A stretch of 64,000 nucleotides of DNA, taken from Dehalococcoidales bacterium (GTDB taxonomy: Bacteria; Chloroflexota; Dehalococcoidia; Dehalococcoidales; Fen-1064). The translations under genes were made by a program, and so were the position numbers. The stretch is taken from positions 456,623 through 520,622 of the forward strand of contig CP070842.1 in the NCBI GenBank assembly GCA_020342155.1, given 5' to 3'. Of this stretch, positions 5,934 through 12,284 are shown in pieces (the stretch's first letter is position 1; the number at the start of each line of letters is the position of its first letter). Below the pieces are notes generated by a model. That model did no database searches. It was given only the letters and a program-made list of their open reading frames with translations, and was not told the origin of the DNA.

Positions 5934-6222
5934 GAGCAGTCATAAGCATCTCACTAGGATAATTGTCTTAATAATATTCGCTCTCGCTTCTGAACCCATT
6001 GTCCCCACAGGTCATAAAATCACTCGTATATTACCCCGAATGTACGGCAATTTGAAACATTCCTGACCCCTGAATTCAAATGTTTAGACATTTCAGGCAG
6101 GTCAAGTTTAGCCGCATAGTTACCAACCCTAAGTCAGCAGACCCTTCTCTAAATTCTGGACAAGTAGGATAATCTCAGGTAACAAACCTGACTAAAGTAC
6201 CATTACTTTACTATTACACAGG
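5934..6222 (+). repeat. Duplicated ~290-bp leader, copy 1
   Basis: It aligns collinearly with 8019–8304. Strongly conserved blocks include GAGCAGTCATAAGCATCTCA, GTCATAAAATCACTCGTATA, a CGAATGT..CG.CAATTTG..A block, and CTGACTAA near the 3' end. It ends about 60 bases before the start of the first gene of the locus. The two copies probably carry common promoter and regulator sites or a structured leader RNA. Confidence 0.8.
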
Positions 6223-6279: not shown

Positions 6280-6576
6280 GTGACAGGAGATGGAATGGAA
6301 TCAACCACAGCAATTCATGAAGAACTGGACCAGGTTGTCGCCCAAGTAGAGCTAGAGGACTACCTTGCAATAGCATCCCGGGTCATGGAGATATACGAGA
6401 TGTTTGATAAGGCTGATGCTGTAGGGCCGGATTACGGTCAAGGTTATCAAGATGGATTCTGGGCAGCGCGTAAGCTCGATGCTGAATATCAGCTGGCTAA
6501 AATGGAATCTGTAAAAGAGAAAATCTCGCTTTTTTTAAAAAAGGAGCGATACCGGATACTATCTGGGCAGAACTGA
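6280..6576 (+). CDS. Small acidic protein of the archaellum-type locus (Y-G-GF-RKL motif)
   Basis: No family is recognised for this 98-residue, helical-looking soluble protein. A segment with Y52, G55, G59-F60 and R64-K65-L66 recurs with identical spacing in the next gene's product (Y16, G19, G23-F24, R28-K29-L30). Translation starts at GTG, supported by AAGGAGAG 7 bases upstream. It is first in the series after leader copy 1 and probably co-transcribed with the next three genes. Confidence 0.7.
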   Translation: MTGDGMESTTAIHEELDQVVAQVELEDYLAIASRVMEIYEMFDKADAVGPDYGQGYQDGFWAARKLDAEYQLAKMESVKEKISLFLKKERYRILSGQN

Positions 6577-6589
6577 ACGAGATACTACA

Positions 6590-6808
6590 ATGTGGATAAG
6601 TAGTGAAAAATACCATGACGATATCAGTGTCGCCTATACAAAAGGGCTTGAGCAGGGCTTCGAGTTATCACGGAAGTTAAAACAAATTCGTGAGCGAAAT
6701 AAACAAGAGCCTTCTCCACAGCTTGATTTGTATCAAGCGGAAGAAACGTCGCTATTGCTGCAGCAACTGGTTGATATTGCCGAACGTAAAGGGATCAAAT
6801 TGAAATGA
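6590..6808 (+). CDS. Small protein paralogous in motif to the preceding one
   Basis: A 72-residue charged, soluble, helical protein with no recognised family. It shares the Y..G...GF...RKL core with the product of 6280–6576. It starts 13 bases after that gene without a clear Shine-Dalgarno, which suggests translational coupling, and overlaps the next gene by four bases (ATGA). It may be a small structural or regulatory partner of the FlaH-like ATPase downstream; that role is inferred only from position. Confidence 0.65.
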   Translation: MWISSEKYHDDISVAYTKGLEQGFELSRKLKQIRERNKQEPSPQLDLYQAEETSLLLQQLVDIAERKGIKLK

Positions 6809-7065
6809 ACTGGCTAAGAGGTAGTTGTCCCTCGTGCAGAATTGAACATTATGGTTGGGCACTGATGAACTCATGCCATCAACGATGTAGCTTGTGTGGA
6901 GCCCAGCTCATAATTCAAGGAAGCCAGCTTCTTCTCAATGGCGTAGAATTCTCGCACAACCGTAGAACAGACATTGATATAATAGCCGGTCAATCTTACC
7001 TAACGAATAATACATGCGATATTACGCAATTTCGGATTTTATCTAATGCATGGTGTCCGGAATAG
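6805..7065 (+). CDS. Small zinc-ribbon-like protein
   Basis: The 86-residue product has CPSC at residues 8–11 followed by further cysteines near residues 24, 28 and 31 (CHQRCSLC), a pattern that could bind zinc. The C-terminal half has no recognised domain. It overlaps the preceding gene by ATGA, so translation is probably coupled, and lies 61 bases before the FlaH-like gene. Function unknown. Confidence 0.6.
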   Translation: MNWLRGSCPSCRIEHYGWALMNSCHQRCSLCGAQLIIQGSQLLLNGVEFSHNRRTDIDIIAGQSYLTNNTCDITQFRILSNAWCPE

Positions 7066-7126
7066 ATCGGCTAATATAATCAGACCGAGGCATAATCTAT
7101 AAATTCATTGTATTAGGAGAGTTCAT

Positions 7127-7834
7127 ATGGAAGAGATGTCGAGATATATCGGCCTAATATCTACTGGAAATGATGAGCTTGACAAGAAAATGGGGGGAGG
7201 GATACCACCCAACTCCCTTAGCCTGATAGAGGGTCAGCCGGATTCTGGTAAATCTGTCCTGTCACAGCAGATGATATGGGGTTCTCTCAAAAACGGATAC
7301 AAGGTAGCCATCTTCACAACGGAGAACTCCGTAAAGAGCCTCATCACACAGATGAAGAGCCTGAATCTTAGCATCCTAGATCAATACCTACTTTCCAAAC
7401 TACGTATCTATCCAATTGATGCCAAGAAATCAGCAGGTAGCATGAATACTGGATTAATTCCCATAATCCAAAATTGTGCCTTGGAAGGCTTTAACCTGGT
7501 GATTGTTGATTCTATCACTTACTATGCTACCCATATCGGTATTGTTGACCTGATTACCTTTTTCGAGGACATGAAGGCTCTGACCAGTAAAGGAGTGAGT
7601 ATCATGTGCAGCGTTCACTCCTATGCCTTTGATGAGGGTACACTTATCAGAATAGGAGCCATGTGTGATGCTCACCTGAGGCTACGCACTGAGACCATGG
7701 GGACCAAGTTGGCAAAAATGCTGGAAGTAGCCAAGATACGCGGCGCTACTCAGAAAACAGGCAATGTAGTCACGTTTGACGTCGAACCAAATTGGGGCAT
7801 CAAGGTTATACCATATGTTAAGGCGAGAGCCTAG
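7127..7834 (+). CDS. FlaH/ArlH-like KaiC-family ATPase
   Basis: The 235-residue protein is a single RecA/KaiC-type domain with Walker A GQPDSGKS (36–43) and Walker B LVIVDS (124–129), the layout and length of archaellum protein FlaH (ArlH). In archaea FlaH forms a ring at the archaellum motor base and works with the FlaI ATPase and FlaJ membrane platform. TTAGGAGAG precedes the ATG. The two archaellin-like genes 0.9 kb downstream support this over a circadian KaiC or RadA role. FlaI, FlaJ, FlaF/G and the prepilin peptidase are not in this window. Confidence 0.8.
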   Translation: MEEMSRYIGLISTGNDELDKKMGGGIPPNSLSLIEGQPDSGKSVLSQQMIWGSLKNGYKVAIFTTENSVKSLITQMKSLNLSILDQYLLSKLRIYPIDAKKSAGSMNTGLIPIIQNCALEGFNLVIVDSITYYATHIGIVDLITFFEDMKALTSKGVSIMCSVHSYAFDEGTLIRIGAMCDAHLRLRTETMGTKLAKMLEVAKIRGATQKTGNVVTFDVEPNWGIKVIPYVKARA

Positions 7835-8386
7835 AAACAGCTACGCTTCTCTAATGCTTAGATAAGGTATTCACCCTCAGATAGTATATGAACGGTTAGA
7901 TCATGTTGAGAGTGGGAGAAAACTGTAAGACCTGAATTATCATGTGTCAACCTCACTCTAGTTTACTTTCCCCAAATGGTAATCGAACAAAGGAACGTTC
8001 TTGCCTCGAAATTCCAGTGAGCAGTCATAAGCATCTCACTAGATAATTGTCTTATAATATCCGCTCTCACTTCTAAATCCCTTATATCCATGGGTCATAA
8101 AATCACTCGTATATTTCTCCGAATGTGCGACAATTTGGAACATTACTGACACCCACATTCAAATCTTTAGACACTTTGGATGACCCGGATTTATTTACTT
8201 AGCCACCAATATTAAGTCGGAGGACCCTTTTTCCATCTTGGATATGTAGGATAATATCATATAACTATCCTGACTAACGCCCCGTTACTTTTCTACCATG
8301 TGGATTACAAAATAAAGAGATCTTAATCATAAAAGTGCTTTAATATGCTTTAATAGTTGAATTTGTAAATAAGGTGCTGCATAGAT
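7835..8386. other. 552-bp intergenic region within the archaellum-type locus
   Basis: It contains leader copy 2 (8019–8304). The first ~180 bases show no feature I can name. Apart from the leader there is no coding frame, and no convincing terminator follows the FlaH-like gene. Confidence 0.6.
8019..8304 (+). repeat. Duplicated ~290-bp leader, copy 2
   Basis: Diverged direct copy of 5934–6222, with small indels and scattered substitutions. It ends about 80 bases before the HTH gene. Its position before the second half of the locus matches copy 1 before the first half. Confidence 0.8.
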
Positions 8387-8611
8387 ATGGATTTAGACGG
8401 GCAAGTAATAATGACAACTGGTGAGGTCGCTGACTTCCTCAAGATACATATCGGTTCTGTCAGGAAGTGGAGTCGCACCGGTATACTCAAAGGATACCGC
8501 TTGGGTGACCGTGGCGACTGGAGATACCTGAGTGGGGACGTACTTGCCTTTTTACAAGGAAATAATAGACCACCAACGGAAGTAGTTGATGTTGGGATAA
8601 AAGAGCGTTAG
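8387..8611 (+). CDS. Excisionase/MerR-type HTH DNA-binding protein
   Basis: A 74-residue protein made of one winged-helix module of the HTH_17/excisionase type: MTTGEVADFLKIHIGSVRKW, then a turn and the wing strand GDWRYLSGDVLAFLQ. Such proteins are DNA-architectural factors or small regulators. With no integrase nearby and archaellin genes directly downstream, a local transcription regulator is more likely than a phage excisionase. AAGGTG lies upstream at rather long spacing. Confidence 0.75.
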   Translation: MDLDGQVIMTTGEVADFLKIHIGSVRKWSRTGILKGYRLGDRGDWRYLSGDVLAFLQGNNRPPTEVVDVGIKER

Positions 8612-8689
8612 TACATGCGTTACCAACTCTACCAGACAGAGTGAAGACAAAAGGTACATAAACTTTCTAATCGGCTAAAGGAATACTAA

Positions 8690-9292
8690 ATGTTAAAGAA
8701 AATTTACCGGAATGAAAGAGGCATAACCGGACTCGAGACCGCAATTATCCTGATTGCGTTCGTTGTAGTAGCCTCGGTATTCGCCTATACGGTACTGTCA
8801 GCCGGCATATTCTCCTCTCAGAAAGGAAAGGAGGCTATCTACTCAGGTCTGGCAGAAGTCAGGGCGGCACTATCTCTAAAGAGCAGCATTGTGGCTGAAG
8901 ACACTGATGCCGATGACGACGTTGACCAGCTGGTATTCGTCGTTGCTGTAGCACTGGAGGGTGAGGCAATCGACTTTGCCATACCGACCGACGCCGACAC
9001 CGATGGTATAGCTGACGACAGCAGTCCTAACGTCGTTGTCATCTCGTATTCTGACGAGACACAACGTATCGATGATATTAATTGGAGTTTCACACCTCTT
9101 GGCAAGGATGATGGCGACTCCCTGCTGGAGCCGGGAGAACAGTTTGCAATTACGATTGACCTGAGTGCCATGGATGGTGATATCGTCACTTATACCACAT
9201 TCATGATCGAGATCAAACCACCAAACGGCAGCGTGCTTATGATAGAGAAGACGATCGGAGGGGTTGTCGACGACATCATGATTCTCAACTAG
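8690..9292 (+). CDS. Archaellin-like (class III signal peptide) pilin 1
   Basis: The 200-residue product begins with a short basic leader (KKIYRNERG) and then ITGLETAIILIAFVVVASVF, the hallmark of archaeal flagellins and related type IV pilins; a FlaK/PilD-type peptidase would cut after G11. The remainder is an acidic beta-rich domain with an Asp-rich stretch (DTDADDDVDQ) that might bind metal. AAAGGA precedes the ATG. Its first ~55 residues are nearly identical to those of the next gene's product, so the two probably co-assemble in one filament. Archaella have been reported in Chloroflexota. Confidence 0.85.
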   Translation: MLKKIYRNERGITGLETAIILIAFVVVASVFAYTVLSAGIFSSQKGKEAIYSGLAEVRAALSLKSSIVAEDTDADDDVDQLVFVVAVALEGEAIDFAIPTDADTDGIADDSSPNVVVISYSDETQRIDDINWSFTPLGKDDGDSLLEPGEQFAITIDLSAMDGDIVTYTTFMIEIKPPNGSVLMIEKTIGGVVDDIMILN

Positions 9293-9340
9293 GAGAAGGG
9301 CTAGTGACGCTGCAATTGAGGTCTACCAAAGGAGATATCA

Positions 9341-10015
9341 ATGCTGAGGATAATAATGATAATGCATCGGAATGAGAGAGGTATTACCGGGCTTGAGACT
9401 GCTATTATCCTGATTGCGTTCGTGGTAGTTGCCTCAGTGTTTGCTTATACCGTGCTGTCCGCCGGTATATTCTCATCTCAAAAAGCGAAGGAAGCAATCT
9501 ACTCCGGTTTGGACGAGGCAACGTCCTCCATGGAGCCAAGGGGAGGCATGACGGCTTATTCGGGCACGGTTGGAGCCACCGAGACCGTAGTTAAGTTATC
9601 TTTCACCGTAACGACAGCCCTGCCCGGTTACGCTGCAGACCTTACTCCTCCTTATACTGCCAGTGATACTGATTTAACAGCCAGCGGCATGGAGAATGTC
9701 TGCTTGATCTCATATATCGATGATAAACAGCTAATTCTGGATGCCGCCTGGACAGTGGATTTCATCGGTAAGAATAACGGTGACTACTTGCTTGACGCTG
9801 ATGAGCAGGCGGTAATAACAGTCTGGCTGGCAGACTATACGGCTTCATCATATACCACAGGTACTGATGAAACCGATCCATTCATTGATGCCGAAGCCGA
9901 CATGCTCAAGTTATACGATACGTTTACTCTTGAAGTTCGTGGTGAGAAAGGCGCTGTCCTGTGCATGGAGCGCACCGTACCCGGGCGGATCGATGTGGTA
10001 ATGAATCTTAATTAG
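9341..10015 (+). CDS. Archaellin-like pilin 2
   Basis: A 224-residue paralogue of the preceding protein. The leader ends in HRNERG and the hydrophobic assembly helix ITGLETAIILIAFVVV is identical, while the surface domain has diverged and is longer. The DNA of the conserved region carries many synonymous differences from the first copy, so the duplication is old and the helix is under selection. AAAGGAGA precedes the ATG. It could be the major or a minor subunit; sequence alone does not say. Confidence 0.85.
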   Translation: MLRIIMIMHRNERGITGLETAIILIAFVVVASVFAYTVLSAGIFSSQKAKEAIYSGLDEATSSMEPRGGMTAYSGTVGATETVVKLSFTVTTALPGYAADLTPPYTASDTDLTASGMENVCLISYIDDKQLILDAAWTVDFIGKNNGDYLLDADEQAVITVWLADYTASSYTTGTDETDPFIDAEADMLKLYDTFTLEVRGEKGAVLCMERTVPGRIDVVMNLN

Positions 10016-10082
10016 ATTTAGAAAAGGAAGATTTTTCTAGGTGTTGCGGGGGGTGGGGGTTCCTCTTTCAGTTATAAAATTT

Positions 10083-10145
10083 GCCGAATCTCGTAGGTCT
10101 GGTACGGTGGCACACTAGGCACGTGAATGGAAGGATATCATAGTA
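10083..10145 (+). pseudogene. Decayed fragment of a PIG-L deacetylase gene
   Basis: This stretch aligns with 5119–5181, codons 17–37 of the intact PIG-L gene, at roughly 80–85% identity. In the matching frame the tryptophan codon of the intact gene is a TAG stop. Just upstream, 10032–10060 resembles 4923–4951 from the region before the intact gene (TTTTTCTAGG..TTGC.GGGG), with about 145 bases between the two blocks missing. It is a remnant left by duplication or rearrangement around the archaellum-type locus. Confidence 0.75.
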
Positions 10146-10147
10146 GG

Positions 10148-11332
10148 TCAATCTCGAGGGGCGTTAATAGTAAGGCTATCCCCGGCATAACTGTTTTTGA
10201 TGACGACCTCTTCGTCCAGTTCGATGCCAAGACCTGGCTTGGTCGGAGGTATAATAAAGCCATTCTCCCATTGGATTGGTTCTTTCAGAATATCAGTGTA
10301 AAAGCCTCCCCAGGTTTCGATACTCTCTTGTATCAAGAAGTTGGGGCTGCATGTGTCTAGCTGTATATTGGCAGCGGCTTCAATCGGACCACAATATAAG
10401 TGTGGCGCAATATGTGCATAATACGCCTCAGCCATCCCGGCAATTTTCTTGGCCTCTAGTATTCCTCCGACTCGTCCGAGGGCCATCTGCAGAATCGCAG
10501 CGGCTTGTTTTTCAAGTAACTCTCGAAACTCGTATTTTGTCGTCAGCCGCTCGCCCGAGGCGATTGGAATACTGGTAGCTCGAGCGACTCTAGCCATCTC
10601 GTCTCTATTCTCTGGGGGTACCGGTTCCTCGAACCAGAGTGGGTCAAATTTCTCAAGCCTTTTAGCCAACCTTATGGCACTGGAAGTGGTCATCTGCCCA
10701 TGTGTCCCCACAAGTATGTCACAGCTAGTACCGACAGCCTCCCGAATACTATTAACAACCATCTCCGCAGTATGAAGTGCCTCGAGGGAGACTTGTACGG
10801 GGCTAGCAGGCATCGTAGGCTCAACAGGATCAATCTTTATAGCAGTAAATCCCTGCTTAATGTACTCAGCTGCCCTCGATGCGGCACGTTCCGGATCAGT
10901 GAACAGGTTGCGTGGCGTAGGGTCATCGGGGGCGGGGTAAAGGTACGTATAAGAGCGGAGTTTTTCGTGAAACTGTCCTCCGAGCAGGTTGTAGATTGGC
11001 TGGTTAAGTGCCTTACCGATGATGTCCCAGCAGGCCATTTCAAAGGCGCTGATTACACCCATCATTGTCAGGTCTGGATGCTGACTATAACCTCTGGAAT
11101 AGAGTGTTCGCCACATCTTTTCAATCTTGAATGGGTCAGAGTCGATGATAAACCTTTCACCGACATCTTCAATCAGGCGTACCGTGGCGTGCGGGTGAAA
11201 GGGTACTCCATAAGCCTCCCCGAAGCCTTCTACGCCATCATCTGTGACCAGTTTGAGGAATACCCAATTGTTTCCCCCTTTATCCGGAACAGGATTACCT
11301 ACTACATACGTCTTGATATCCGCTATCTTCAA
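10148..11332 (-). CDS. Mandelate racemase/muconate-lactonizing enzyme family dehydratase
   Basis: A 394-residue enolase-superfamily enzyme with an N-terminal capping domain and TIM barrel. Visible active-site motifs are AIKID, FEEP and SGERL, plus IAPHLY with the barrel-end histidine. The set resembles galactonate/rhamnonate-type acid sugar dehydratases, which remove water from sugar acids using Mg2+. The substrate cannot be assigned. The start is TTG at 11332, supported by GAGGG upstream. An SDR gene lies 43 bases upstream on the same strand, so the two probably act together in acid-sugar breakdown. Confidence 0.8.
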   Translation of the reverse strand: MKIADIKTYVVGNPVPDKGGNNWVFLKLVTDDGVEGFGEAYGVPFHPHATVRLIEDVGERFIIDSDPFKIEKMWRTLYSRGYSQHPDLTMMGVISAFEMACWDIIGKALNQPIYNLLGGQFHEKLRSYTYLYPAPDDPTPRNLFTDPERAASRAAEYIKQGFTAIKIDPVEPTMPASPVQVSLEALHTAEMVVNSIREAVGTSCDILVGTHGQMTTSSAIRLAKRLEKFDPLWFEEPVPPENRDEMARVARATSIPIASGERLTTKYEFRELLEKQAAAILQMALGRVGGILEAKKIAGMAEAYYAHIAPHLYCGPIEAAANIQLDTCSPNFLIQESIETWGGFYTDILKEPIQWENGFIIPPTKPGLGIELDEEVVIKNSYAGDSLTINAPRD

Positions 11333-11375
11333 GTTGATTATCCCTCGTAATTACAGTAGTCGTTTATCTACATAT

Positions 11376-12161
11376 CTATACCAGAAAACTGCCACCATCT
11401 ATTAGAATAGTCTCACCGGTCAGGTAGCTTGAGGCGTCGGATGCCAGGTATATCATGGCACCAGCTACCTCATCGGGCTGTCCGATATGCCCCACCGGTA
11501 TTCTTTTGGCAACCTCCGCCTTCTCCTTTTTCATCTGCTCCTCCGAGACGTCGAACCAGTGGGAGTCGTAGATGCGGGTCTCTACCGCACCCGGCGCAAT
11601 ACAGTTAACCCGGATGTTGTACTGTGCCAGCTCTACGGCCATGACCTTGGTCACCATGACAACCGCTGCTTTACTGATAGAGTAAGCCCCGACATGGTAC
11701 TCCGGTTTATAGGCATCTATCGAGGCGACATTGATGATTTTACCGCCGCCGTGCTCTTTCATTACTCTGCTTGCTGCCTGGCTGAGGAAGAACAGCCCCT
11801 TTAGGTTGAGGTTCATCACCACATCCCAGGCCCTTTCCTCCAGGTCCAGTGACGAAGCCAGCACCGGGCTGGTGCCGGCGTTGTTGACCAGGATATCAAT
11901 CGTGCCGAACTCGCCCACTACTGTCTTGACCAGTTCCTGTATCTGGTCCATCCGCCCGACATGACAGGCTACCGGTAGAGATTTAACTCCCAGCCCCCTT
12001 ATCTCTTCGGCTACCAGTTCCAGGTCGGGTAGCTTCCGGCTGGTCACCACTACGTTAGCACCGGCGTTGGCAAATCCCAGCGCTGTGGCTTTACCAATAC
12101 CCCGGCTGGCACCGGTCACCAGGGCTACTTTACCCTCAAGTGAGAATCGCGATAAATCCAT
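11376..12161 (-). CDS. Short-chain dehydrogenase/reductase (FabG-like)
   Basis: A 261-residue classical SDR: the cofactor motif TGASRGIG near residue 17, NNAGT in the middle, and the YSISK catalytic pair near residue 158. The length and C-terminal IDGGSFLV are typical of FabG/gluconate-dehydrogenase-type members, which oxidise or reduce hydroxyl groups using NAD(P)H. GGAGAG precedes the ATG. Proximity to the enolase-family dehydratase suggests sugar-acid metabolism rather than fatty acid synthesis. Confidence 0.85.
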   Translation of the reverse strand: MDLSRFSLEGKVALVTGASRGIGKATALGFANAGANVVVTSRKLPDLELVAEEIRGLGVKSLPVACHVGRMDQIQELVKTVVGEFGTIDILVNNAGTSPVLASSLDLEERAWDVVMNLNLKGLFFLSQAASRVMKEHGGGKIINVASIDAYKPEYHVGAYSISKAAVVMVTKVMAVELAQYNIRVNCIAPGAVETRIYDSHWFDVSEEQMKKEKAEVAKRIPVGHIGQPDEVAGAMIYLASDASSYLTGETILIDGGSFLV

Positions 12162-12284
12162 GCTATGCTCTCCTTATATCTATTCTTAGCTGCCTTACAA
12201 GAGTGGGCTGACATACGCTGCGAGCTGGTACATGTCAATCATAGCATACTATGGCCAGATGTGTGTTGACCATAGCAGGAAGGG

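Follow-up and report, generated by a model that had tools for sequence, protein, structure and literature searches.

Gene content of the locus

The locus considered here lies within a 64,000-nt stretch of the genome of Dehalococcoidales bacterium (GCA_020342155.1, contig CP070842.1, positions 456,623-520,622 of the forward strand), hereafter termed the window; the genome itself is a single 2.30-Mb contig. The open reading frames described in an earlier note on this DNA were all recovered at the same coordinates, and they comprise three small genes (ORF98, ORF72 and ORF86), an ATPase gene, a regulator gene and a pair of archaellin genes, together with two copies of an upstream element (Table 1).

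Table 1. Features of the satellite archaellum locus (positions within the window).
Feature	Position	Strand	Description
Upstream element copy A (~280 bp)	5934..6213	+	Precedes small-gene cassette
ORF98	6280..6576	+	Small, predicted all-helical; Y..G...GF..RKL motif
ORF72	6590..6808	+	Small helical protein; motif in common with ORF98
ORF86	6805..7065	+	Zinc-ribbon protein; family spread through Dehalococcoidia
ArlH2 (FlaH paralogue)	7127..7834	+	KaiC-like ATPase; Walker A GQPDSGKS and Walker B intact
Upstream element copy B	8019..8295	+	Precedes HTH-arlB3-arlB4
HTH_17 (BldC/MerR-like) regulator	8387..8611	+	Paralogue of two HTH genes at canonical cluster
Archaellin ArlB3 (ArlB1-type paralogue)	8690..9292	+	PF01917 2.5e-25; tree; alignment
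Archaellin ArlB4 (ArlB2-type paralogue)	9341..10015	+	PF01917 5.8e-17; tree; alignment

The ATPase matches the NCBIfam FlaH family NF004723 above cutoff (E 1e-74), and its top structural match is the FlaH of S. acidocaldarius (4YDS, E 6e-36), with which the Walker A and Walker B motifs align. Against the stricter ArlH equivalog NF052589 it scores 192, just under the cutoff of 215. By these sequence criteria the protein is a member of the ArlH family and resembles ArlH more closely than KaiC or RadA. Both archaellins match arch_flag_Nterm above cutoff in addition to PF01917, and the best PDB match of ArlB3 is the group 9i5h/9sie/9sii (E 1.8e-41), of which 9SIE and 9SII are deposited entries for the bacterial archaellum of Litorilinea (PMC12488501). 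The regulator is recognized as HTH_17 (7e-10), and ORF86 contains a CPxC...CxxC zinc-ribbon pattern along with a weak match to Zn_ribbon_NUD. The earlier identification of archaellum-type genes in a member of the Chloroflexota, accompanied by zinc-ribbon and HTH proteins, is thus borne out. Genes for ArlI, ArlJ, ArlF, ArlG and the prepilin peptidase do not occur within the window locus, which alone is not a complete, stand-alone or stripped-down archaellum.

A complete archaellum cluster elsewhere in the chromosome

A complete cluster is located 1.37 Mb from the window on the same contig, at about 1833.8-1841.9 kb (locus L017), in the order HTH-arlB1-arlB2-D/E-like-arlG-arlF-arlH-arlI-arlJ, followed by an unknown gene and, further on, a second HTH gene. 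The arlI (PF00437) and arlJ (PF00482) genes fall at 1838-1841 kb, the two archaellin genes are further members of PF01917, and arlF matches the FlaF family above cutoff (PF22201, 5.9e-07). The ArlG-like gene occupies the expected position with a sub-cutoff PF01917 match. The D/E-like gene encodes 258 aa, has no Pfam match and is assigned by position only. A prepilin peptidase gene (PF01478) is found at 1340179-1340541. At the level of the genome, ArlI and ArlJ, PF01917 archaellins with a class III signal peptide, ArlF and ArlG, and a prepilin peptidase are therefore all present.

The earlier note had described an archaellum-type locus in a bacterium and had remarked on its lack of FlaI, FlaJ, FlaF/G and peptidase, proposing a search of the genome for FlaI/FlaJ and the peptidase. 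That search was successful: the absence holds for the window locus and fails for the genome, and since the full cluster lies elsewhere, it says nothing of a reduced system. A reading of these genes as the archaellum locus itself is not supported.

Three HTH_17 paralogues (L017:7824-8072, L017:16860-17084 and the regulator of the window) flank archaellum genes in this genus and have a near-identical DNA-binding core; archaellum clusters in other genera yielded no such paralogues. Downstream of arlH2, a segment of ~105 bp (window 7893-7996) has a 75% match, in reverse orientation, to DNA beside the canonical cluster (L017:18812-18914, minus strand).

Origin of the satellite by duplication

The locus arose as a duplicated block, made up of the HTH gene, arlB3, arlB4 and arlH2, and forms a satellite of the complete cluster. 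Its core proteins are about 76-79% identical to their canonical counterparts; ArlH2 is 79% identical to ArlH1 of its own genome, and about 51% or less to the proteins of all genomes outside the genus. Phylogenetic trees pair ArlB3 with ArlB1, ArlB4 with ArlB2 and ArlH2 with ArlH1, and each of these clades includes the orthologue from a sister species, Dehalococcoidia bacterium W156. These are the two species from which the satellite is known. In W156, it occupies the same site with the same right flank (87% identity over 10044-12187, and 85-88% over the satellite genes), in the order upstream element-HTH-arlB3-arlB4-arlH2. Thus, arlH2 directly follows the archaellin genes in W156, without the three small genes, whereas in the window it precedes the archaellin genes. 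The shared site and the placement in the trees indicate that the block was duplicated before the two species split.

Between the two species, dN/dS is 0.156 for arlH2, 0.131 for arlB3 and 0.141 for arlB4, as compared with 0.142 and 0.123 for the main archaellins and a tighter 0.045 for ArlH1, each value being drawn from a single pair of short genes. By this measure (0.13-0.16) the three core genes of the satellite are under purifying selection, and all satellite reading frames are intact. The HTH gene of the satellite has drifted more than that of the canonical cluster (0.28 versus 0.03). When aligned, all eight archaellins of both species are near-identical through the N-terminal helix and around the cleavage site, while their heads are divergent.

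Extra arlH genes also occur as orphans in two other genomes, G005 (L122:8079-8834, minus strand) and G083 (L124:8201-8911, minus strand), with no other recognizable arl gene within ~8 kb. In the tree, the orphan of G005 groups as sister to the canonical ArlH of the same genome, and additional ArlH copies accordingly seem to have originated on more than one occasion.

The small-gene cassette

The Y..G...GF...RKL motif that the earlier note had reported in ORF98 and ORF72 was recovered by profile-profile comparison, with an hhalign probability of 92% over 32 columns. ORF98 has no match in Pfam, NCBIfam or PHROGs, and none of the small proteins has a convincing match in PHROGs. AlphaFold models, built on three sequences, reached a mean pLDDT of 76 for ORF98 and 79 for ORF72, and a Foldseek search of the PDB with the ORF98 model returned nothing below E 1. 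ORF86 shares its core with a group of zinc-ribbon small proteins of the Dehalococcoidia (C..CG...GW.L...HQ.C..CG..L), from which ORF86 differs in its divergent tail and in coming after ORF98 and ORF72, genes that do not accompany most of its relatives. By profile, this core was found in about 25 of the 393 genomes of the class, mostly ones without ArlH. ORF72 and ORF86 are fast-evolving, with dN/dS values of 0.66 and 0.55, as compared with 0.15 for ORF98.

Homologues of ORF98 number two in W156 and one, distant, in G081, a genome without ArlH; within the family (14 genomes), the gene is limited to the two species with the satellite. ORF72 is matched by homologues in W156, and the host genome has another copy of it (position 2152589), which is paired with a zinc-ribbon gene at 2152.6 kb and has no archaellum genes alongside. 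The two cassette copies of W156 are at unrelated sites, neither at the satellite nor linked to any arl gene. One, in the order ORF98-72-86 and with 78% nucleotide identity to the window cassette, upstream DNA included, lies between mscL and a coiled-coil gene, and the other is more diverged and lies on a different contig. A scan of genome contigs for the cassette yielded these two W156 loci only, and a scan of viral contigs yielded none. At 20 other arlH loci, not one of the three genes was present.

The cassette is, to judge from its distribution, separable from arlH, and it adjoins arlH2 in this species only, an adjacency observed in one assembly. The earlier note had suggested that the small proteins might replace the archaeal FlaC/D/E adaptors or regulate the ATPase. 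They are not beside arlH2 in W156, they are missing from the 20 other arlH loci, an outcome which the note had itself taken to count against its reading, and the zinc-ribbon family occurs in genomes without ArlH; a role as dedicated FlaH partners is not supported and one as new FlaC/D/E substitutes is consequently unlikely, and one false lead is removed.

A DivIVA-like coiled-coil gene stands beside both W156 cassettes (L028:7828-8463 and L029:5981-6565, 54% identical to each other), and longer relatives of it occur elsewhere in the genus. It was considered as a partner of the cassette and rejected: the window cassette has no such gene with it, and the match to the DivIVA family of Pfam falls short of the cutoff.

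A shared upstream element

The two copies of the upstream element are 77% identical to each other. W156 has two corresponding copies, one before an unlinked cassette and one before the satellite HTH gene; the other W156 cassette is without the element. No further copies were found in the host genome, W156 or G013. The genus has a third species, in which ArlH, ORF98 and the element are all missing. The upstream region of the satellite is unrelated to those of the canonical cluster. Predicted RNA folding of the element was no better than that of shuffled sequences (z -0.9) and it has no Rfam match, nor did an Rfam scan of the window and canonical cluster return any; a scan for sigma-70 promoters found fewer sites than in shuffles. 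A dispersed mobile repeat was also considered and rejected, as each genome has two copies, both of which precede these operons.

The upstream DNA common to the cassette and the satellite operon suggests co-regulation instead of adaptor replacement. The element could represent either regulatory DNA common to both operons or the trace of a former adjacency. It may also mark a site of past recombination, given that the cassette stands directly before arlH2, and arlH2 before the archaellins, unlike the arrangement in W156.

Proposed role of the satellite

The satellite is best read as an alternative archaellin pair with a matched ArlH, which would feed the canonical motor under separate regulation; a probability of roughly 0.6 is assigned to this reading. 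In an ancestor of the two species, the HTH gene and archaellin pair at the front of the cluster were copied to a second site along with arlH, but without arlD/E, arlG, arlF, arlI or arlJ. The products ArlB3 and ArlB4 would be cleaved by the PF01478-type prepilin peptidase of the genome, after which the canonical ArlI/ArlJ/F/G motor would assemble them into filaments. They are expected to be compatible with this motor, given how little the archaellins differ in the N-terminal helix and around the cleavage site. With an upstream region unlike that of the main cluster, the cell could then alter the composition of its filament, in the manner of ecoparalogous archaellins. ArlH binds ArlI and has been proposed as the gate between assembly and rotation (PMC8978795), and the presence of a second ArlH beside a second set of filament genes suggests a switch module matched to them. 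Bound to ArlI in place of ArlH1, or mixed with it, ArlH2 would control the switch between assembly and rotation for the filament concerned. The small genes form a separate cassette, possibly switched on with the satellite through the homologous upstream element.

Several other readings of the locus deserve consideration. The satellite could instead be a surplus duplicate in the course of being lost, kept for now as a reservoir for recombination of archaellin variation with the main cluster. The drift of its HTH gene and the difference in gene order between the species, including the position of arlH2, indeed hint that the locus may be losing function, the N-terminal regions of the paralogous archaellins are near-identical, and orphan arlH genes without partners are found in some other genomes. 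Nonetheless, the dN/dS of all three core genes since the species split, the intact reading frames and the retained Walker motifs of ArlH2 speak against decay, and this explanation is regarded as unlikely. Assignment of the two pilins to an ordinary type IV or Tad pilus, a possibility the earlier note had set against its own reading, draws on the other T2SSE/T2SSF gene sets of the host genome and is extremely improbable. Both pilins match archaellin-type families only, with no match to N-methyl or Flp-type pilin families; the best solved match is a bacterial archaellum, and the genes adjoin ArlH and were duplicated from the archaellum cluster, such that family and tree results alike contradict it.

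Another possibility is that the small genes serve the satellite as true accessories, which would be expressed together with it through the shared element and might, for example, modulate ArlH2. Their adjacency and common direction with arlH2 in the window, the presence of the element, in both genomes, at these sites alone, and the restriction of ORF98 within the family to the satellite-bearing species would fit such a role. It is nevertheless a doubtful one, considering the unlinked W156 cassettes, one of them without the element, the 20 arlH loci where the genes are missing, the zinc-ribbon family and distant ORF98 homologue in genomes without ArlH, and the rapid evolution of ORF72 and ORF86. 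More doubtful again is the specific proposal that they constitute a lineage-specific, co-regulated cassette acting on ArlH2, for instance on its oligomeric or phosphorylation state, to give one motor with a second filament and switch.

Relation to known archaella

Archaella of Chloroflexota have been described from Litorilinea aerophila and 243 genomes, with a second archaellum locus in ten Chloroflexota genomes, incomplete in nine of these (Sivabalasarma et al. 2025; PMC12488501). The host genome resembles these systems in its archaellins, ArlH, ArlI, ArlJ, ArlF/ArlG and a peptidase outside the cluster. The main text of that study gives no contents for the second loci, whereas the one described here consists of arlB-arlB-arlH and an HTH gene, with an upstream region of its own and the small-gene cassette next to it. 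Archaella of Chloroflexota and incomplete second loci are therefore already published; the present analysis adds what such a satellite contains, how it arose and which DNA lies upstream of it, along with evidence against the small genes as adaptor replacements.

A second archaellin far from the motor genes is also found in Haloarcula marismortui, whose ecoparalogues FlaA2 and FlaB are encoded on separate replicons (pNG100 and the chromosome, respectively; PMC6528647). Use of the second archaellin is condition-dependent in that organism, as is proposed for the satellite; that study mentions no ArlH with the plasmid archaellin, and here two paired archaellin types were duplicated together with a dedicated ArlH. 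The adjacent pair of divergent archaellins recalls Methanocaldococcus villosus, in whose filament ArlB1 and ArlB2 alternate (PMC8821640), although here a second pair is present at a second locus. The satellite shows a bacterial archaellum, archaeal in origin, that was elaborated by duplicating its filament pair and ArlH regulator under an upstream region of their own. The satellite would allow the interchangeability of ArlH, and filament change like that of haloarchaea, to be tested in bacterial archaella.

Other duplications were encountered among archaellum genes of related genomes. Seven genomes of the order (L116 G003, L117 G001, L118 G009, L119 G048, L120 G110, L121 G005 and L123 G062) have two adjacent full-length arlI genes, of ~580 aa each with Walker A intact, in the order arlH-arlIa-arlIb-arlJ. 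A phrase search of the literature found no paper on adjacent arlI duplication. In the tree, the copies fall into two orthologous groups (90/90 and 81/86), and a single, old duplication of the motor gene is suggested. A second and far more distant ArlH-like gene, 28-36% identical to ArlH2, is present at L135 (G094:C48) and in about nine more genomes of family f27, which mostly also have the main archaellum set; at L135 it lies beside weak ArlI-like matches.
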